Assembly: GCA_030145245.1 (NCBI GenBank)
Contig: JAQYWC010000065.1
Span: 62,001 to 126,000, forward strand
DNA from: Desulfobacterium sp.
Lineage (GTDB): Bacteria > Desulfobacterota > Desulfobacteria > Desulfobacterales > Desulfobacteraceae
DNA: 64,000 bases
Direction: 5' to 3'
Positions within the stretch are counted from its first letter, which is position 1; each line of letters begins with the position of its first letter. Position numbers and translations under genes: made by a program. This document shows, one piece after another, positions 57,368 through 64,000 of the stretch. The notes under the pieces were generated by a model. It ran no database searches and was not told the DNA's origin. It was given only the letters and a program-made list of their open reading frames with translations.

Positions 57368-57940
57368 ATGGAAGATACCTTGACCGTATTTACCGCGAGC
57401 AAATACTGCAACGTTTCATCTAAGACCATCATCAACTGGGTCGAGGCCGGTCATATCAAGGCGTACAAGACCGTAGGCGGCCATCGGCGAATCAAAAAAG
57501 CCGATCTTTTGAGCTTCATGGAGAACCAGGGGATCCCCATTCCCGAGGAAAAGGGCGAAGAGGGGCGAAAACGGATCCTTGTTGTGGACGACGACATGAT
57601 CATCGTGGAGTCCATCGTCCAGGCCCTGGAGGAGGATGAGTTTGACTACGATGTGGTCTCGGCCTCGGACGGGTTTGAGGCCGGCCTCCAGGTCAAGCAT
57701 TTCAACCCTGATCTGCTGATCCTGGACATCATGATGCCCGACATCAAAGGGTACGAGGTGTGCAAAAAGATCAAGTCCGATCCCGAGACCCGGGAGATCA
57801 AGATCATCGTCCTGTCGGCCTACCTTGACGACGAAAAGTTCAAGACCATGAAGGAGAACGGCGCGGACATCTGCTTAACCAAGCCCCTGCCCCTGGCCCA
57901 GCTCAAATCGGAAGTGGCAACCCTGCTTGGATTAAAATAG
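57368..57940 (+). CDS. Excisionase/MerR-type DNA-binding domain fused to a receiver
   Basis: The 190-residue protein has an N-terminal winged-helix of the helix_turn_helix_17/MerR type (FTASKYCNVSSKTIINWVEA, GGHRRIKKADLLSFM, residues 8-51) and a C-terminal receiver at about 68-188 (ILVVDDDMIIV; phospho-Asp 120 in LLILDIMMPDIKG; Thr/Ser in IVLSAY; Lys in CLTKPLPL). In common response regulators the receiver comes first; here the order is reversed and the DNA-binding part is of the excisionase kind. Genes of this kind are frequent in deltaproteobacteria. The MetF gene starts 13 bases after its stop, so it is the first gene of the MetF-Hdr operon or its regulator. No kinase is adjacent. Confidence 0.9.
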   Translation: MEDTLTVFTASKYCNVSSKTIINWVEAGHIKAYKTVGGHRRIKKADLLSFMENQGIPIPEEKGEEGRKRILVVDDDMIIVESIVQALEEDEFDYDVVSASDGFEAGLQVKHFNPDLLILDIMMPDIKGYEVCKKIKSDPETREIKIIVLSAYLDDEKFKTMKENGADICLTKPLPLAQLKSEVATLLGLK

Positions 57941-57953
57941 AAGGAGGCACGTC

Positions 57954-58829
57954 ATGAACCTAAGAGAAGCATTGGATCAAAAGAGATTTGTCGTAACATC
58001 TGAAATCCAGGCCCCCCTCGGCGATGACGATCCCGAAATGCTGGTCAACAGCCTCAAGCGGGTGAAGGGCCGGGTGGACGGGGTGTCTGTGTCCGAAGTC
58101 GAGCTTCAGGGGGTGGTGGGCGACACCATCAAGACCTGCGATCTGTTGAACAAAAACCGTTTCACCCCCATCTACCAGACCACCACCAGGGACAAGAACC
58201 GGTTCCAGCTCCAGAAAGACCTTGCCGCCGCCCATGGGATCGGCGTGGAAAACCTCCTGGTGTTTACCGAGGATTACCGGATCTCCGGGGACACCCTCCA
58301 GGAGACCATGTTTTTCCACGTGGATTCGGGGAAGCTGGCTTCCGTGCTCGACCACATGAAGGATGGCCAGACCATCGACGGCCAGGCCCTGCCGGGCAAG
58401 ATGGAATTCACCCTCGGGTCCGGCGTCACCACCCCCTGGGGAAAGCCTGTGAGCAAGAAGGGGATGGAGGAGATGGAGGATATGATGAACCTGAACACGG
58501 GATATTTCCTCACCACCCCGATCTTTGACCTGGACCAGTTTGAACGGTTCATGAAACAGGTCAACACCTTTAACGTCCCGGTGATCGCCGAGGTGATGAT
58601 CCTCAGAACCGCGGGCATGGGAAAGTTTCTCAACCGCCACTTCCGGTCGGGCCTTGTGCCGGACTGGGCCATCCAGAAGCTGATGAACGCGCCGGACAAG
58701 GCAAGGGCCAGCATGGAGCTTTTCGCGGAGACGATCAACGGCTTAAAGCACCTCTGCCAGGGCGTACACATCATCACCATCGGAGGGCAGGACCGGCTTG
58801 CCCATTACCTTAATGCGGCAAGATTATAG
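57954..58829 (+). CDS. metF: Methylenetetrahydrofolate reductase (MetF family)
   Basis: The 291-residue protein matches MetF in length and pattern: NLREALDQKRFVVTSEIQAP start, RVKGRVDGVSVSEVELQGV near 37, FTPIYQTTTRDKNRFQLQKD near 73 and FNVPVIAEVMILRTAGMGKF near 202. It binds FAD and reduces methylene-tetrahydrofolate to methyl-tetrahydrofolate. AGGAGG precedes the ATG. Genes for an HdrC-HdrB selenoprotein and an HdrA-type flavoprotein follow on the same strand, so the reductase is probably a subunit of an Hdr-linked complex that does not use NAD(P)H directly, as shown for MetFV-HdrABC of acetogens. It may serve acetyl-CoA synthesis or oxidation. Confidence 0.93.
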   Translation: MNLREALDQKRFVVTSEIQAPLGDDDPEMLVNSLKRVKGRVDGVSVSEVELQGVVGDTIKTCDLLNKNRFTPIYQTTTRDKNRFQLQKDLAAAHGIGVENLLVFTEDYRISGDTLQETMFFHVDSGKLASVLDHMKDGQTIDGQALPGKMEFTLGSGVTTPWGKPVSKKGMEEMEDMMNLNTGYFLTTPIFDLDQFERFMKQVNTFNVPVIAEVMILRTAGMGKFLNRHFRSGLVPDWAIQKLMNAPDKARASMELFAETINGLKHLCQGVHIITIGGQDRLAHYLNAARL

Positions 58830-58899: not shown

Positions 58900-60186
58900 A
58901 TGGCAAGGGTAATTGACATTGACCATTGTACGTGTGAATTAAAGGAACAAATCACCCACCTCCTGCCGGATGCCAACCTTGATCTCTGCCTCACCTGCGG
59001 CACCTGTACCGGCGGATGTCCGGCCTCGGAACAATACGACATGGACCCGAGGCGATTTCTGCGAATGGTGGTGCTGGGCATGGACGACGAGGTGCGAAAC
59101 TCTCCCTGGGCCTGGGTCTGCACCATGTGCGCACGGTGCAAGCACGCCTGTCCCATGGATATCGACATCCCCAAACTGATCTACAACGTAAGGGCAAGCG
59201 TGCCAAGGGAGGAGCGGCCCAAGGGGATCCGGGGCTCCTGTGACCAGCACATCAAGGCCGGCAACGCCATGGGCGTGCCCAGGGATGATTTCATCTTCAC
59301 CGTGGAGGATGTGGCAGAGGAGATCCGGGAGAACCAGCCCGATTTCAAAGATCTCAAGGTTTCGGTGGACCGGAAAGGGACCGCCATGGTTCTGAACCAG
59401 AACTCCAGGGAACCGGTTACCGAGCCGGATGAGCTGGGCCCCCTGTGGAAGATCCTTCATCTGGTGGATGCCGACTGGACCTACCCTTCAGTGATGTGGG
59501 CCGGTGAGAACTACTGCATGTTCCTGGCCGACGACGAGGGATGGCGATACATCCTGGAGGAGTTTGTCCACCACGTGGACGTCAACCTGAAGAGTCCCCT
59601 GGTGGTCAATACCGAGTGAGGCCACTCCTACTTTGCAATCCTGGAAGGGTTGCGAAAATACAAGATCGACCATAAATTCAAACTGGTTACCATCATCGAA
59701 CTCTATGCCCAGTGGATACGGGAAGGAAAGCTTGCGGTCAGCTCCGACTGGAACCGGGATCTCAAGATCAAGTTCACGGTTCAGGATCCCTGCAACATCG
59801 GGCGAAAGGTCGGCACCAACCGGATCGTGGACGACCTTCGCTTTGTGCTGAAAGCAGCCATCGGCGAGGAGAATTTCAGGGAGATGGCCCCCAACCGGGC
59901 CAACAACTTCTGCTGCGGCGGCGGGGGCGGAGCCCTCCAGGCCGGGCACACGGACCAGCGCAGGGCTTACGGAAAGGCCAAGTTCGACCAGGTGATGGAG
60001 ACAGGGGCCCAGTATGTGATCGCCCCCTGCCACAACTGCCATGCCCAGATTGAGGACATGGGCTCCCACTACGGGGGCGCCTACCATGTGGTCCATCTCT
60101 GGACCATCCTCTGCCTTGCCATGGGCATTCTCGACGAGAACGAACGAAGCTATCTTGGACCCGACCTGGCCATGGTGGGCCTCTAA
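58900..60186 (+). CDS. HdrC-HdrB-type fusion protein containing selenocysteine (UGA at 59617-59619)
   Basis: The ATG at 58900 with AAAAGGAG ahead opens a frame of 239 codons, meets TGA at 59617, and continues in the same frame for another 188 codons to a TAA at 60184. The first part has two 4Fe-4S motifs of HdrC (CLTCGTCTGGCP, 30-41; CTMCARCKHACP, 74-85). Reading the TGA as selenocysteine gives NTE-U-GHSYF at 240, then a CCG domain of HdrB: C298, C338-C339 in NFCCGGGGGAL and C377/C380 in PCHNC, spacing C-x39-CC-x37-CxxC. A SECIS-like hairpin starts 12 bases after the TGA. The protein should carry electrons between MetF and the HdrA flavoprotein encoded next. A broken gene is unlikely, as both halves and the frame are intact. 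Confidence 0.9.
59632..59657 (+). other. Bacterial SECIS-like hairpin for the UGA at 59617
   Basis: TTTGCAATCC at 59632-59641 pairs with GGGTTGC and AAA at 59647-59657, with one bulged G, around the loop UGGAA. The loop starts 22 bases after the UGA and has the two adjacent guanines that SelB-binding loops need. It lies wholly in the coding region, as expected in bacteria. Confidence 0.75.
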
Positions 60187-60202: not shown

Positions 60203-63200
60203 ATGGGTGAAAACAAGAGAGGATCAGTGCTGGTGGTGGGCGCCGGCATCGCAGGAATCCAGGCGGCCCTTGATCTGGCCGATTCCGGATTCTTTGTCCA
60301 CCTGGTGGACAAAAGTTCCGCCATTGGCGGGGTGATGGCCCAGCTGGACAAGACCTTTCCCACCAATGACTGCTCCATGTGCATCATCTCCCCTAAGCTT
60401 GTTGAGGCGGGACGGCATCTCAACATCGAGCTGTCCACCATGACCCGGATCCGGGAGGTCACGGGGGAGGCCGGTGATTTCACGGTCACCATGCTCGGGG
60501 AGCCACGATACATCGATCTTGAGAAATGCACGGCCTGCGGGGAGTGTGCCACGGTGTGTCCGGTGGAGCTGCCGAGCCGGTTTGACGAAAACCTGTGCAA
60601 CCAGAAGGCCGCGTTCAAGCTCTATCCCCAGGCCATGCCCTCGGCCTTTGCCATTGACAAGGGGGACCGAGCCCCCTGCACCCTTGCCTGCCCGGCCAAC
60701 ATCAATGTCCAGGGCTATGTCCAGATGGTGAAGCAGGGACAATATGAACGCGCCCTTGGGATCATCATGGACAAGCTTCCGTTACCGGGGATCCTGGGCC
60801 GGATCTGCCCCCACGGCTGCGAAACCGCCTGCCGGAGAAACGAGGTGGACCAGCCCATTGCCATCCGGGATCTCAAGCGGCTGGCCGCCGATCGGTTTGA
60901 CCCGAGAAAGGTGAAGATCGACTGCCCCGCTCCCACGGGAAAACGTGTGGCCATCATCGGATCGGGCCCGGCCGGCCTGTCCGCCGCCTATCACCTGGCC
61001 AGGAAAGGCATTGGCGCCACCATTTTCGAGGCCCTGGCAAAGCCCGGGGGCATGCTCAGGGTGGGCATCCCGGAACACCGGCTGCCAAGGGATATCATCG
61101 ACATGGAGATCGAGGTGATCACCCAGCTGGGGGTGGAGATCCGGCTCAACGCTCCCCTGGGCAAAGATCTCACCGTGGACACCCTTCTCTCGGACGGGTT
61201 TGAGGCCGTGTTCCTTGCCATGGGCGCCCATCAGGGCATCGGGCTTGGCATACCCGGGGAAACCATGGAAGGCGTCTGCCAGGGGGTGGATCTCCTGCGG
61301 CGGATGAACCTGAAGGAACCCGTTGAGGTGGGCAAACAGGTGGCGGTCATCGGTGGCGGCAATGTCGCCATTGACGTGGCCAGAAGCGCCCTGCGCCTGG
61401 GGGCGGACGCCGTTACTATTCTCTATCGCCGCACCCGGAACGAGATGCCGGCCTGGGAGGAGGAGATCCAGGCCGCCGAGGACGAGGGGGTCAAGCTGGT
61501 CTATCTGGCCGCTCCCCAGGAGGTGCTTGGAGAAGAAAACCGGGTCACGGGCCTGAGATGCATTCAAATGGAACTTGGCGAACCGGACAGTTCCGGCCGG
61601 AGACGCCCGGTTCCCCTTCCCGGGAGCGAGTTTGAGATCCGGGTGGACCAGGTTATCCCGGCCATCGGCCAGCGGCCGGATCTCTCGATCATGGAAGCCC
61701 TTGGCGAAATTGAGATGACCGCCTGGGGCACGGCCCTGGTAGACCCTGACACCCTTGCCACCACCCGGACGGGCGTGTTTGCAGGCGGGGATTTCCAGAC
61801 AGGACCCGGGGTGGCCATCGGTGCCGTGGGGGCGGGCATGGCCGCAGCAGCGTCCATGGCCCGGTATCTTGCCGGGGAGACCTCCCCCAAAGAGGACACG
61901 TCATTAAAAGAGGACGCGGCCCTGTCCGACGAGCCCGATTATGTCCCGATCCCAGCGGATATCCCAAGGCAGCCGCGTTCCCATATGCCGGAACTGCCCC
62001 TGGAAGAGCGCCGGGGCAATTTCCGGGAGGTGGAGCTGGGCCTTTCCGAACAAGAGGGTCAGGTGGAGGCGGACCGCTGCCTCAACTGCGGCTTCTGTTC
62101 CGAGTGCATGGCCTGTGTGGATGCCTGCCTTGCCAAGGCCGTGGATCACACCATGGCACCTGAGATAAAACAGCTGTCCGTGGGGGCCATCATCCTCTCC
62201 CCGGGATTTACCGCCTTTGACCCCTCCGTCTACGACACCTACGGCTACGGCACCATCCCCAACGTGGTCACCAGCATCGAATTTGAACGGCTATTGTCCG
62301 CCTCAGGTCCCAACATGGGACATCTTGTAAGGCCCTCGGACCAGAGGGAACCCAGAAAGATCGCCTGGCTCCAGTGCGTGGGCTCCAGGGATATCAACAA
62401 GGGAGACCACAGCTACTGCTCCGGGGTGTGCTGCATGTACGCCAACAAGCAGGCGGTCATCGCAAAGGAGCACAGCGAGCTGGAACTTGATACCGCCATC
62501 TTTTTCATGGACATGAGGACCCATGGCAAGGAGTTCGACGCCTACAGCATCCGGGCCCAGGACGAGCACGGGGTAAGGTTGGTCCGATCCAGGATCCACA
62601 GCATATTTCCCCACAAGGATGACACCCTCAAGATCGTCTATGCCACCGAACCCGGGTCAACCGTGGAGGAGATCTTCGATATGGCAGTCCTCTCCGTGGG
62701 CCTGGCCCCGCCAAAGGATGCAGCAGCCCTTGCCAAAACCATGGGGATCGGGCTCAACCGTCACGGGTTTGCTGAAACCTGCAACCTCGCCCCGGTGGAT
62801 ACCACCAAAGAGGGCATCTTTGTGTGCGGCAGCTTCCAGGAGCCCAAGGATATTCCAGGCTCGGTCATGGAGGCATCGGCCGCCGCGGCCTCGGCATCCC
62901 GGCTTCTCAACACCGAACGCTGGAGTCTGACCCGCACCCCGGAGCTTGTGCCGGAACGTGATTTCTCGGGCATGGAGCCCCGCATCGGGGTCTTTGTCTG
63001 CAACTGCGGCATCAACATCGGCGGCATCGCCGATGTGCCTGCGGTCCGGGACTATGCCGCCACCCTTGACCAGGTGATCCATGTGGAGGACAACCTCTTC
63101 TCCTGTTCCCAGGATGCCCAGGACCACATCCGGGATGTTATCATGGAAAAGAACATCAACCGGGTGGTGGTGGCCTCCTGCTCCCCCAGGACCCATGAGC

Positions 63201-64000
63201 CCCTGTTCCAGGAGACCATCCGGGCGGCAGGGCTGAACAAATATCTCTTTGAGATGGCAAACATAAGGGACCAGAACACCTGGGTCCACATGAACCAGCC
63301 TGAAAAGGCGACCCAAAAGGCCAAGGACCTGGTGCGCATGGCCGTGGCCAAGGCCGCCCATGTGGAACCCCTGCACCTGGTGAACCTTCCCATCCACAAG
63401 GCGGTCCTGGTGGTGGGGGGCGGTGTGGCCGGCATGGAGGCGGCCCTGGGGGTGGCGGACCAGGGCATCAACGCCTTCCTTGTGGAACAGTCCGGGGTTC
63501 TTGGCGGGGTGGCCAGGGATCTTAAGACCACCTGGCAGGGGGAAAAGGTCGCCCCCTATCTTGAGGATCTCATGGAGCGGGTCAAGGGCCACGACAGGAT
63601 ACAACTCTTCACCAGCGCAAGGGTGATCGCCTCAACCGGCTCCCTGGGGAATTTCGTCACCACCATTGCCCAGGAGGGGGGCATCAACGGCAAGACCATG
63701 GTGGAGCATGGTGCCGCCATCATCGCCACCGGCGGTCACGAGCTCAAACCCGATCTCTATCATTACGGCAAACACCCCAATGTGCTGACCCATCTGGAGA
63801 TGGACAAGGTGGTGCAGGCCACCTCAAACGGGGTAACCCGGACAAAGGCCGTGGTGTTCATCCAGTGCGTTGGCTCCAGGAACGAGGAGCGACCGTACTG
63901 CAGCAAGGTGTGCTGCACCCACAGCCTGAAGACGGCCCTTGCGCTGAAGAAGCTGAATCCCGCCACCCGGGTCTACATCCTCTACCGGGAGATCCGCTCC
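60203..64000 (+). CDS. Giant HdrA-GltD-HdrA flavoprotein, C-terminus outside the window
   Basis: An open frame of 1266 codons runs from the ATG at 60203 (GGAGG ahead) to the window end. Order by residue: HdrA-type FAD region (VVGAGIAGIQAALDLADSGF), 4Fe-4S motif CTACGECATVCP near 109, a GltD/NfnB-type NAD(P)H module about 155-570 (GSGPAGLSAAYHLARKG near 253, GGGNVAIDVARSALRLGAD near 384), a second cluster CLNCGFCSECMACVDACL near 626, HdrA core with CVGSRD and YCSGVCC, then a complete second HdrA beginning near 930 (VFVCNCGINIGGIADVP; FSCSQDAQDHIRDVI; GGGVAGMEAALG; CVGSRNEERPYCSKVCC). HdrA flavins split electrons between high- and low-potential acceptors. With MetF and the HdrC-HdrB protein it should form a methylene-tetrahydrofolate reductase complex that takes NAD(P)H and ferredoxin. 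Confidence 0.9.
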   Translation, partial: MGENKRGSVLVVGAGIAGIQAALDLADSGFFVHLVDKSSAIGGVMAQLDKTFPTNDCSMCIISPKLVEAGRHLNIELSTMTRIREVTGEAGDFTVTMLGEPRYIDLEKCTACGECATVCPVELPSRFDENLCNQKAAFKLYPQAMPSAFAIDKGDRAPCTLACPANINVQGYVQMVKQGQYERALGIIMDKLPLPGILGRICPHGCETACRRNEVDQPIAIRDLKRLAADRFDPRKVKIDCPAPTGKRVAIIGSGPAGLSAAYHLARKGIGATIFEALAKPGGMLRVGIPEHRLPRDIIDMEIEVITQLGVEIRLNAPLGKDLTVDTLLSDGFEAVFLAMGAHQGIGLGIPGETMEGVCQGVDLLRRMNLKEPVEVGKQVAVIGGGNVAIDVARSALRLGADAVTILYRRTRNEMPAWEEEIQAAEDEGVKLVYLAAPQEVLGEENRVTGLRCIQMELGEPDSSGRRRPVPLPGSEFEIRVDQVIPAIGQRPDLSIMEALGEIEMTAWGTALVDPDTLATTRTGVFAGGDFQTGPGVAIGAVGAGMAAAASMARYLAGETSPKEDTSLKEDAALSDEPDYVPIPADIPRQPRSHMPELPLEERRGNFREVELGLSEQEGQVEADRCLNCGFCSECMACVDACLAKAVDHTMAPEIKQLSVGAIILSPGFTAFDPSVYDTYGYGTIPNVVTSIEFERLLSASGPNMGHLVRPSDQREPRKIAWLQCVGSRDINKGDHSYCSGVCCMYANKQAVIAKEHSELELDTAIFFMDMRTHGKEFDAYSIRAQDEHGVRLVRSRIHSIFPHKDDTLKIVYATEPGSTVEEIFDMAVLSVGLAPPKDAAALAKTMGIGLNRHGFAETCNLAPVDTTKEGIFVCGSFQEPKDIPGSVMEASAAAASASRLLNTERWSLTRTPELVPERDFSGMEPRIGVFVCNCGINIGGIADVPAVRDYAATLDQVIHVEDNLFSCSQDAQDHIRDVIMEKNINRVVVASCSPRTHEPLFQETIRAAGLNKYLFEMANIRDQNTWVHMNQPEKATQKAKDLVRMAVAKAAHVEPLHLVNLPIHKAVLVVGGGVAGMEAALGVADQGINAFLVEQSGVLGGVARDLKTTWQGEKVAPYLEDLMERVKGHDRIQLFTSARVIASTGSLGNFVTTIAQEGGINGKTMVEHGAAIIATGGHELKPDLYHYGKHPNVLTHLEMDKVVQATSNGVTRTKAVVFIQCVGSRNEERPYCSKVCCTHSLKTALALKKLNPATRVYILYREIRS

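Follow-up and report, generated by a model that had tools for sequence, protein, structure and literature searches.

Selenoproteins of the GlpC type were gathered in a 2006 list reportedly drawn up by Zhang and Gladyshev. Such proteins have been listed since at least that year, when the available passages give five of them and an operon glpC-hdrA-frhD-frhG-frhA (PMC1794560). In the accessible parts of later reviews (PMC9312934, 2022; PMC13188914, 2026) an Fe-S oxidoreductase-like family is included, the more recent of the two giving its motif as UGH and describing the functions of its members as largely uncharacterised. Passages of a 2021 MAG study name Fe-S oxidoreductase and heterodisulfide reductase among selenoproteins (PMC8318568), and those available from the Desulfococcus multivorans genome paper list five selenocysteine (Sec) genes, the HdrCB/GlpC family not among them (PMC5109826). 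In Desulfobacterium autotrophicum HRM2, hdrD4 is of HdrC-HdrB type and is a reported selenoprotein according to the text available (PMC2702500). Gene sets joining MetF to HdrA-, HdrB- and HdrC-like genes have been described as MetFV-HdrABC in Moorella thermoacetica and metF-HdrABC in Seep-SRB1g, in a paper whose available passages mention selenium only in a reference on selenite (PMC10553843). Furthermore, a structural reference exists in EtfD (PDB 9ojn), for which the passages available report that C503, C538, C581 and C584 hold a linear [3Fe-4S] cluster, and that C637, C672, C673, C709 and C712 together with H583 hold a noncubane cluster; its authors regard the His-capped cluster as non-catalytic (PMC13083937).

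The locus described here lies in a window of 64,000 nucleotides (the whole stretch of DNA that was analysed) from a Desulfobacterium sp. contig, and its gene order is response regulator-HTH, MetF1, HdrCB-Sec, HdrL, MvhD (TGA), MetV, MetF2. The features are as follows.

57368-57940, forward strand: response regulator (receiver domain plus helix-turn-helix) that precedes the cluster in this locus and in many related ones
57954-58829, forward strand: MetF1, a divergent methylenetetrahydrofolate-reductase-like protein directly upstream of HdrCB (Pfam, census of loci)
58900-60186, forward strand: HdrCB, a predicted HdrC-HdrB fusion selenoprotein (GlpC/HdrD-like) with Sec240 (translation, Pfam, NCBIfam, relatives, structure comparison)
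58978-59166, forward strand: two ferredoxin-type [4Fe-4S] motifs, HdrC-like (C30, C33, C36, C40, C74, C77, C80, C84; Pfam, with HdrC structures matching by sequence)
59617-59619, forward strand: predicted Sec240 UGA codon, NTE-U-GHS (translation; TGA or Cys in relatives)
59632-59656, forward strand: SECIS-like hairpin, core 59636-59641 pairing with 59647-59652, apex UGGAA at 59642-59646 (folding, conservation)
59776-60051, forward strand: C-terminal CCG domain (C298, C338-C339, C377-x-x-C380), noncubane [4Fe-4S] site by homology (Pfam, EtfD alignment)
60203-64000, continuing to 64654 in window numbering (L132), forward strand: HdrL (1483 aa), with HdrA-like parts and an NAD(P)H domain resembling the glutamate synthase small subunit, extending beyond the window end

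With U-G-H at 240-242 (preceded by E239), the U being a predicted Sec, and a SECIS-like element after the UGA, HdrCB resembles the UGH Fe-S oxidoreductase-like selenoproteins (GlpC, COG0247, PTHR43551), for which Sec in UGH, occurrence in Deltaproteobacteria and association with HdrA and FrhD are likewise given in the passages available (PMC13188914, PMC9312934, PMC1794560). The GlpC models TIGR03379 and PRK11168 match HdrCB below cut-off. The known GlpC selenoproteins, as far as those passages describe them, stand in hydrogenase operons, whereas HdrCB lies beside MetF1, HdrL, MvhD, MetV and MetF2, and no hydrogenase large subunit was found among the cluster genes scanned. HdrCB is also like the HRM2 hdrD4 product, and the HdrL of this locus resembles the HdrL type described for that organism (PMC2702500, from the text available). 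A same-genus genome (G225) has two listed matches at 58% identity, one of which carries a TGA. MetF, MetV, HdrA-, HdrB- and HdrC-like genes and MvhD stand together in one cluster, as a MetFV-HdrABC-MvhD gene set. Unlike the Moorella and Seep-SRB1g systems, as these appear in the passages available (PMC10553843), HdrC and HdrB are fused here, Sec is predicted, HdrA is represented by the long HdrL and its NAD(P)H domain, and there is an extra divergent MetF1; the locus also has MetV and MvhD beside the MetF and Hdr genes. HdrCB is very probably a genuine selenoprotein of a family that was already known. For its setting MetF1-HdrCB(Sec)-HdrL-MvhD(TGA)-MetV-MetF2, no report of a Sec-containing HdrCB tied to MetF was found in the open-access literature, searched by listing, abstract and passage. 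What would be new is likely the place next to MetF and a candidate selenium site by an unusual iron-sulfur cluster.

The HdrCB frame encodes 428 residues, an estimated 48 kDa or so, and its sole internal stop is the TGA at 59617-59619, which is codon 240 in the context NTE-U-GHSYF; the initial annotation, made from the sequence before any searches, had described a single TGA in an otherwise open frame, and translation bears this out. It had also foreseen that automatic gene calling would split the frame at this point, and table 11 does give the same two ORFs, 58900-59619 (239 aa) and 59650-60186 (178 aa), as two separate genes would, or one gene broken by a nonsense mutation or an assembly error. 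An in-frame TTG within 20 codons past the TGA, the sole in-frame start over that distance in most Sec copies, is in line with such a split and occurs in 73 of 88 Sec segments. However, this TTG encodes Leu within the hairpin stem and is missing in 15 of the 88, one of which has a GTG farther downstream. The identical TGA is shared by 89 frames from many genomes, and the Cys frames (n = 20) have no TGA in their aligned part and read on past codon 240 without interruption. Codon changes 3′ of the TGA are mostly in third positions, like those of the 5′ part, in the four relatives compared; against one of them (L037) the non-synonymous share was 9 of 31 changed codons after the TGA and 4 of 42 before it, a slightly weaker constraint after, and in this and the three other comparisons the codons after the TGA retain a protein-coding look. 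Separate translation of the halves, raised by the initial annotation as the counter-case, has left no sign in the continuous Cys frames or in the segments lacking TTG. We therefore reject the two-gene and pseudogene readings, given the TGA shared by 89 frames and the continuous Cys frames, and consider them extremely improbable; most likely the gene encodes a single intact protein.

Relatives were sampled as 109 frames matching at E ≤ 1e-60, drawn from 111 loci of whole genomes and a named genome collection, with some organisms fetched twice. Site 240 is TGA in 89 of these frames, Cys in 20 and never another residue, as had been anticipated for the E-U-G-H context, and no Sec frame has more than this one TGA within the aligned part. 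G241 and H242, which complete the U-G-H motif, are invariant (109/109), and so are Cys114 and Cys206. On a tree of 96 distinct proteins (80 Sec, 16 Cys), none shorter than 380 residues, the Sec/Cys label changes at least three times, with the direction not fixed. A wider sample of the order gave a match at E ≤ 1e-60 in 115 of 146 genomes, and most of the matches listed carry one TGA, its position being compared in the fetched rows; among the matches listed at order and class level, rows without TGA were called Cys only when fetched. All class-level matches listed belong to the same genus, family or order (17 of 192 genomes not listed), therefore our inference stays within the order. In more distant relatives from the same genome the expectation of Cys or Sec held only in part, with Cys in DsrK (L133), L134 and L140 and neither residue in L139. 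The motif at this column varies by subfamily, being ECGH in DsrK and L134, CPHC in L140 and without Cys in L139.

A hairpin with a UGGAA loop had been proposed 12 bases downstream of the TGA, within 59617-59660. Folding of 59617-59666 (-15.1 kcal/mol) does predict one beginning at that distance, at 59632-59656, although with z = -2.40 and six of 200 shuffles equal or better the single-sequence hairpin is only moderately striking. Its conservation separates the two groups of relatives: all six core pairs are present in 79 of 80 distinct Sec segments and in 0 of 16 distinct Cys segments, three of the latter having at least five of the six (identical segments were merged, 88 to 80 for Sec and 20 to 16 for Cys, and one Sec frame, L109, was left out, being truncated at the end of its contig). 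One core pair is A-T in 65 of the Sec segments, G-C in 14 and broken in one. When the partner strand was slid by 1-3 bases, pairing in the Sec copies dropped from 0.998 to 0.48 or less. None of 1000 column shuffles reached the observed 0.998, but this test is weak because the stem columns hardly vary (shuffle mean 0.974) and the sequences are related. Stronger evidence for the hairpin comes from invariant third codon positions, with offsets 23, 26 and 35 showing an entropy of 0 in Sec segments compared with 2.0, 1.42 and 1.25 bits in Cys segments. Chance is excluded, since site 240 is TGA or Cys in 109/109 frames and third codon positions of the stem are fixed in Sec segments and variable in Cys segments.

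The genome also holds the means of insertion. A search for the genes selA, selB, selC and selD, as the initial annotation had suggested, found selA, selB, selD and tRNA-Sec above their cut-offs. A reading of the UGA as some other residue, whether through suppression or an altered code, found no support and is very unlikely; it sits badly with this Sec machinery and with Cys in relatives, and HdrL, MetV and MetF2 of the same cluster terminate in TGA, hence the genetic code is not reassigned. On these three grounds a changed code was rejected. UGA240 very probably encodes selenocysteine, and the conserved sequence and the sel genes suggest that SelB would bind the hairpin behind it so that Sec is inserted. 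The selD match of this genome (L120, G000:C33) itself holds one TGA.

The initial annotation placed HdrCB next to MetF, and MetF1 indeed adjoins it. In a census of neighbours, 63 of 65 Sec loci have MetF1 no more than 700 bases upstream, as do 2 of 9 Cys loci; the two Sec loci without it (L095, L099) start at or near a contig end. Applied downstream, the same 700-base limit picked up HdrL at 56 of the 65 Sec loci and at 5 of the 9 Cys loci, which is an undercount: of the nine Sec loci failing the distance rule seven do show an HdrL frame, and the remaining two (L076, L109) end with the contig. The census covers 74 of 75 loci, one (L104) being lost when its read-through frame was credited to HdrL, and the 75 lean towards the MetF-linked branch because peptides of HdrCB itself served as queries. 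Cultured relatives such as Desulfosarcina widdelii (L091) and Desulfospira joergensenii (L060) are among those with a TGA copy together with MetF1 and HdrL. The same genome has three other close copies, of which two carry TGA and one Cys, and the 15 kb fetched around each contains no relative of MetF, HdrL or MvhD; Sec in the HdrCB family is hence not tied to MetF, since two TGA copies stand without these neighbours. A probable HdrCB selenoprotein is kept by many sulfate-reducing bacteria next to one-carbon enzymes, which suggests that annotations of many Desulfobacterales may show this MetF neighbour as two gene fragments. The receiver-HTH protein (57368-57940) is possibly a regulator of the cluster.

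Other members of the cluster have features of their own. MvhD (L132:14713-15147, or 64713-65147 in window numbering, past the window) has an in-frame TGA in CCQYU, and TGA occurs in 39 of the 41 MvhD matches above 150 bits in related loci; CxxU is already known in the MvhD family, according to the passages available (PMC13188914). MetF1 scores 55 bits with Pfam and MetF2 149 bits, and this fuller MetF2 sits with MetV in the same cluster. Conserved blocks run through MetF1 over 31 rows, for example TSE near its start, unlike MetF2 (a consensus of 2 rows).

In domain layout HdrCB has an HdrC-like part followed by two HdrB-like (CCG) halves. One chain thus carries the HdrC-type [4Fe-4S] pair and then a CCG domain, as in an HdrCB (HdrD-like) fusion, and the Pfam matches agree with the initial annotation, which had put HdrC clusters 5′ and a CCG domain 3′ of the TGA (ferredoxin-type 4Fe-4S; PF02754, E 1.8e-10). 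The two complete CCG motifs and two noncubane clusters of HdrB proper are not present, with the first CCG half having only C206 and U240 and no Cys between C114 and C206. An AlphaFold2 model built from 35 rows (pLDDT 86.6, pTM 0.88) was compared with known structures by VIA-align. It matches EtfD 9ojn with Z 24.2 and rmsd 3.0 over 369 residues, covering EtfD 285-751 only; HdrB chains with Z about 20 and rmsd 2.8-3.0 over about 250 residues; and, in the Hdr-hydrogenase complex 5odh, a chain whose length of 183 residues points to HdrC, with Z 13.5 and rmsd 2.1 over 109 residues. Further matches among those listed include 3kwl (Z 19.9) and a LutA-LutB model (Z 19.7).

HdrCB shares with EtfD the two 4Fe-4S motifs, the two CCG halves and the noncubane ligands including His, as these are given in the passages available (PMC13083937). 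By sequence, U240, G241, H242 and S243 align with EtfD C581, P582, H583 and C584, and C298, C338, C339, C377 and C380 with C637, C672, C673, C709 and C712. With a single sequence the correspondence of 240 and 581 scores weakly (E 0.0064), and a profile (E 1.2e-7) and the fold agree with it; another profile (A2) returned no EtfD alignment. All five Cys and the His of the noncubane site thus have their counterparts in HdrCB, and none of the six varies among the frames covering them; His242 probably caps the remaining noncubane cluster. In contrast to EtfD, the ligands of the linear [3Fe-4S] cluster are incomplete, with Sec predicted at one position, S243 replacing C584 and C206 alone left for C503 and C538, and the membrane part of EtfD is absent from the aligned region. 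Our main new inference is that Sec240 would occupy a ligand position of the lost cluster, two residues from His242. The initial annotation had suggested that Sec240 could tune the redox potential or bind a metal or a flavin partner of MetF; of these, a role as a metal-site residue is plausible, because the EtfD homology puts residue 240 at a cluster-ligand position. Homology of C206 with EtfD C538 was considered and is doubtful, since by way of L140 the equivalent column seems nearer W200 (EtfD is not aligned there); a pairing of C206 with Sec240 accordingly draws on invariance alone.

Taken with gene order, from which formation of a MetF-Hdr complex is read, these results make it likely that HdrCB is a single selenoprotein and an electron-transfer subunit of such a complex. 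In an electron-transfer complex of the MetF-HdrL-MvhD type it would supply the HdrC-HdrB subunit. Homology to EtfD and HdrB suggests that electrons may then move between the HdrL flavin, both [4Fe-4S] clusters in the HdrC part and a single noncubane [4Fe-4S] cluster at the C-terminal CCG domain. The N-terminal CCG half, with Sec240 at one ligand position, Ser243 replacing another and Cys206 remaining, would be unable to hold a cluster in the manner of EtfD, hence the selenol could face the noncubane cluster as a redox-active residue, either as a selenolate or as a selenylsulfide with the invariant Cys206. It may then exchange electrons with a partner, for which the neighbouring flavoprotein MetF1 or a disulfide carrier is the most likely candidate. 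For this active-selenol step on its own we judge the chances to be nearly balanced, leaning slightly against. The complex as a whole would link the Wood-Ljungdahl pathway, at its methylene-/methyl-tetrahydrofolate step, to NAD(P)H and ferredoxin.

Sec240 could instead be non-catalytic, a passive residue or ligand tuning the potential or stability of the noncubane cluster within an electron wire, as in EtfD. We regard this as a substantial minority possibility, with which the invariance of His242 (109/109) and its alignment with EtfD H583 are consistent, as is the interchange of Sec and Cys on the tree (at least three label changes, direction not fixed). Passive roles seldom require Sec, and most of the copies examined keep it together with a dedicated hairpin, both of which speak against a passive role.

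HdrB reduces a heterodisulfide, and disulfide reduction is also proposed for TmcB, HmcF and DsrK. HdrCB might likewise reduce a disulfide, for example DsrC or a low-molecular heterodisulfide, with MetF merely a neighbour. HmcF, TmcB and DsrK are its best NCBIfam matches, and ECGH stands at the site in the DsrK of the same genome (L133) and in L134, the next relative by the DsrK model, below cut-off. The scores are however far under the cut-offs (180/750 bits for HmcF, 167/735 for TmcB, 114/400 for DsrK), and membership in these equivalogs was rejected on that basis. Moreover, position 243 is Ser or another residue and not the second Cys of C-x-x-C that EtfD and HdrB have (the HdrB alignment being very weak), and MetF1 is retained upstream in nearly all Sec loci. 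We find disulfide reduction with an incidental MetF rather unlikely. Within the preferred reading, that of an electron-transfer subunit, the fullest version is that Sec240 binds or faces iron of the noncubane cluster or pairs with Cys206 as a selenylsulfide next to it, the selenol having replaced the lost cluster and serving as the entry or exit of MetF electrons in a complex with two selenoproteins (HdrCB and MvhD) of sulfate reducers using the acetyl-CoA pathway; this is speculative and on balance improbable. The MetF-linked branch and the EtfD residue map make the role of these selenoproteins testable, allowing specific tests of which partner is served, which cluster is involved and what the selenium does.

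Cys also occurs at this site in the MetF-linked copy of two loci (L009 and L011, genomes G124 and G027). G027 has another copy with TGA beside the Cys MetF-linked one, and this genome may still use Sec.
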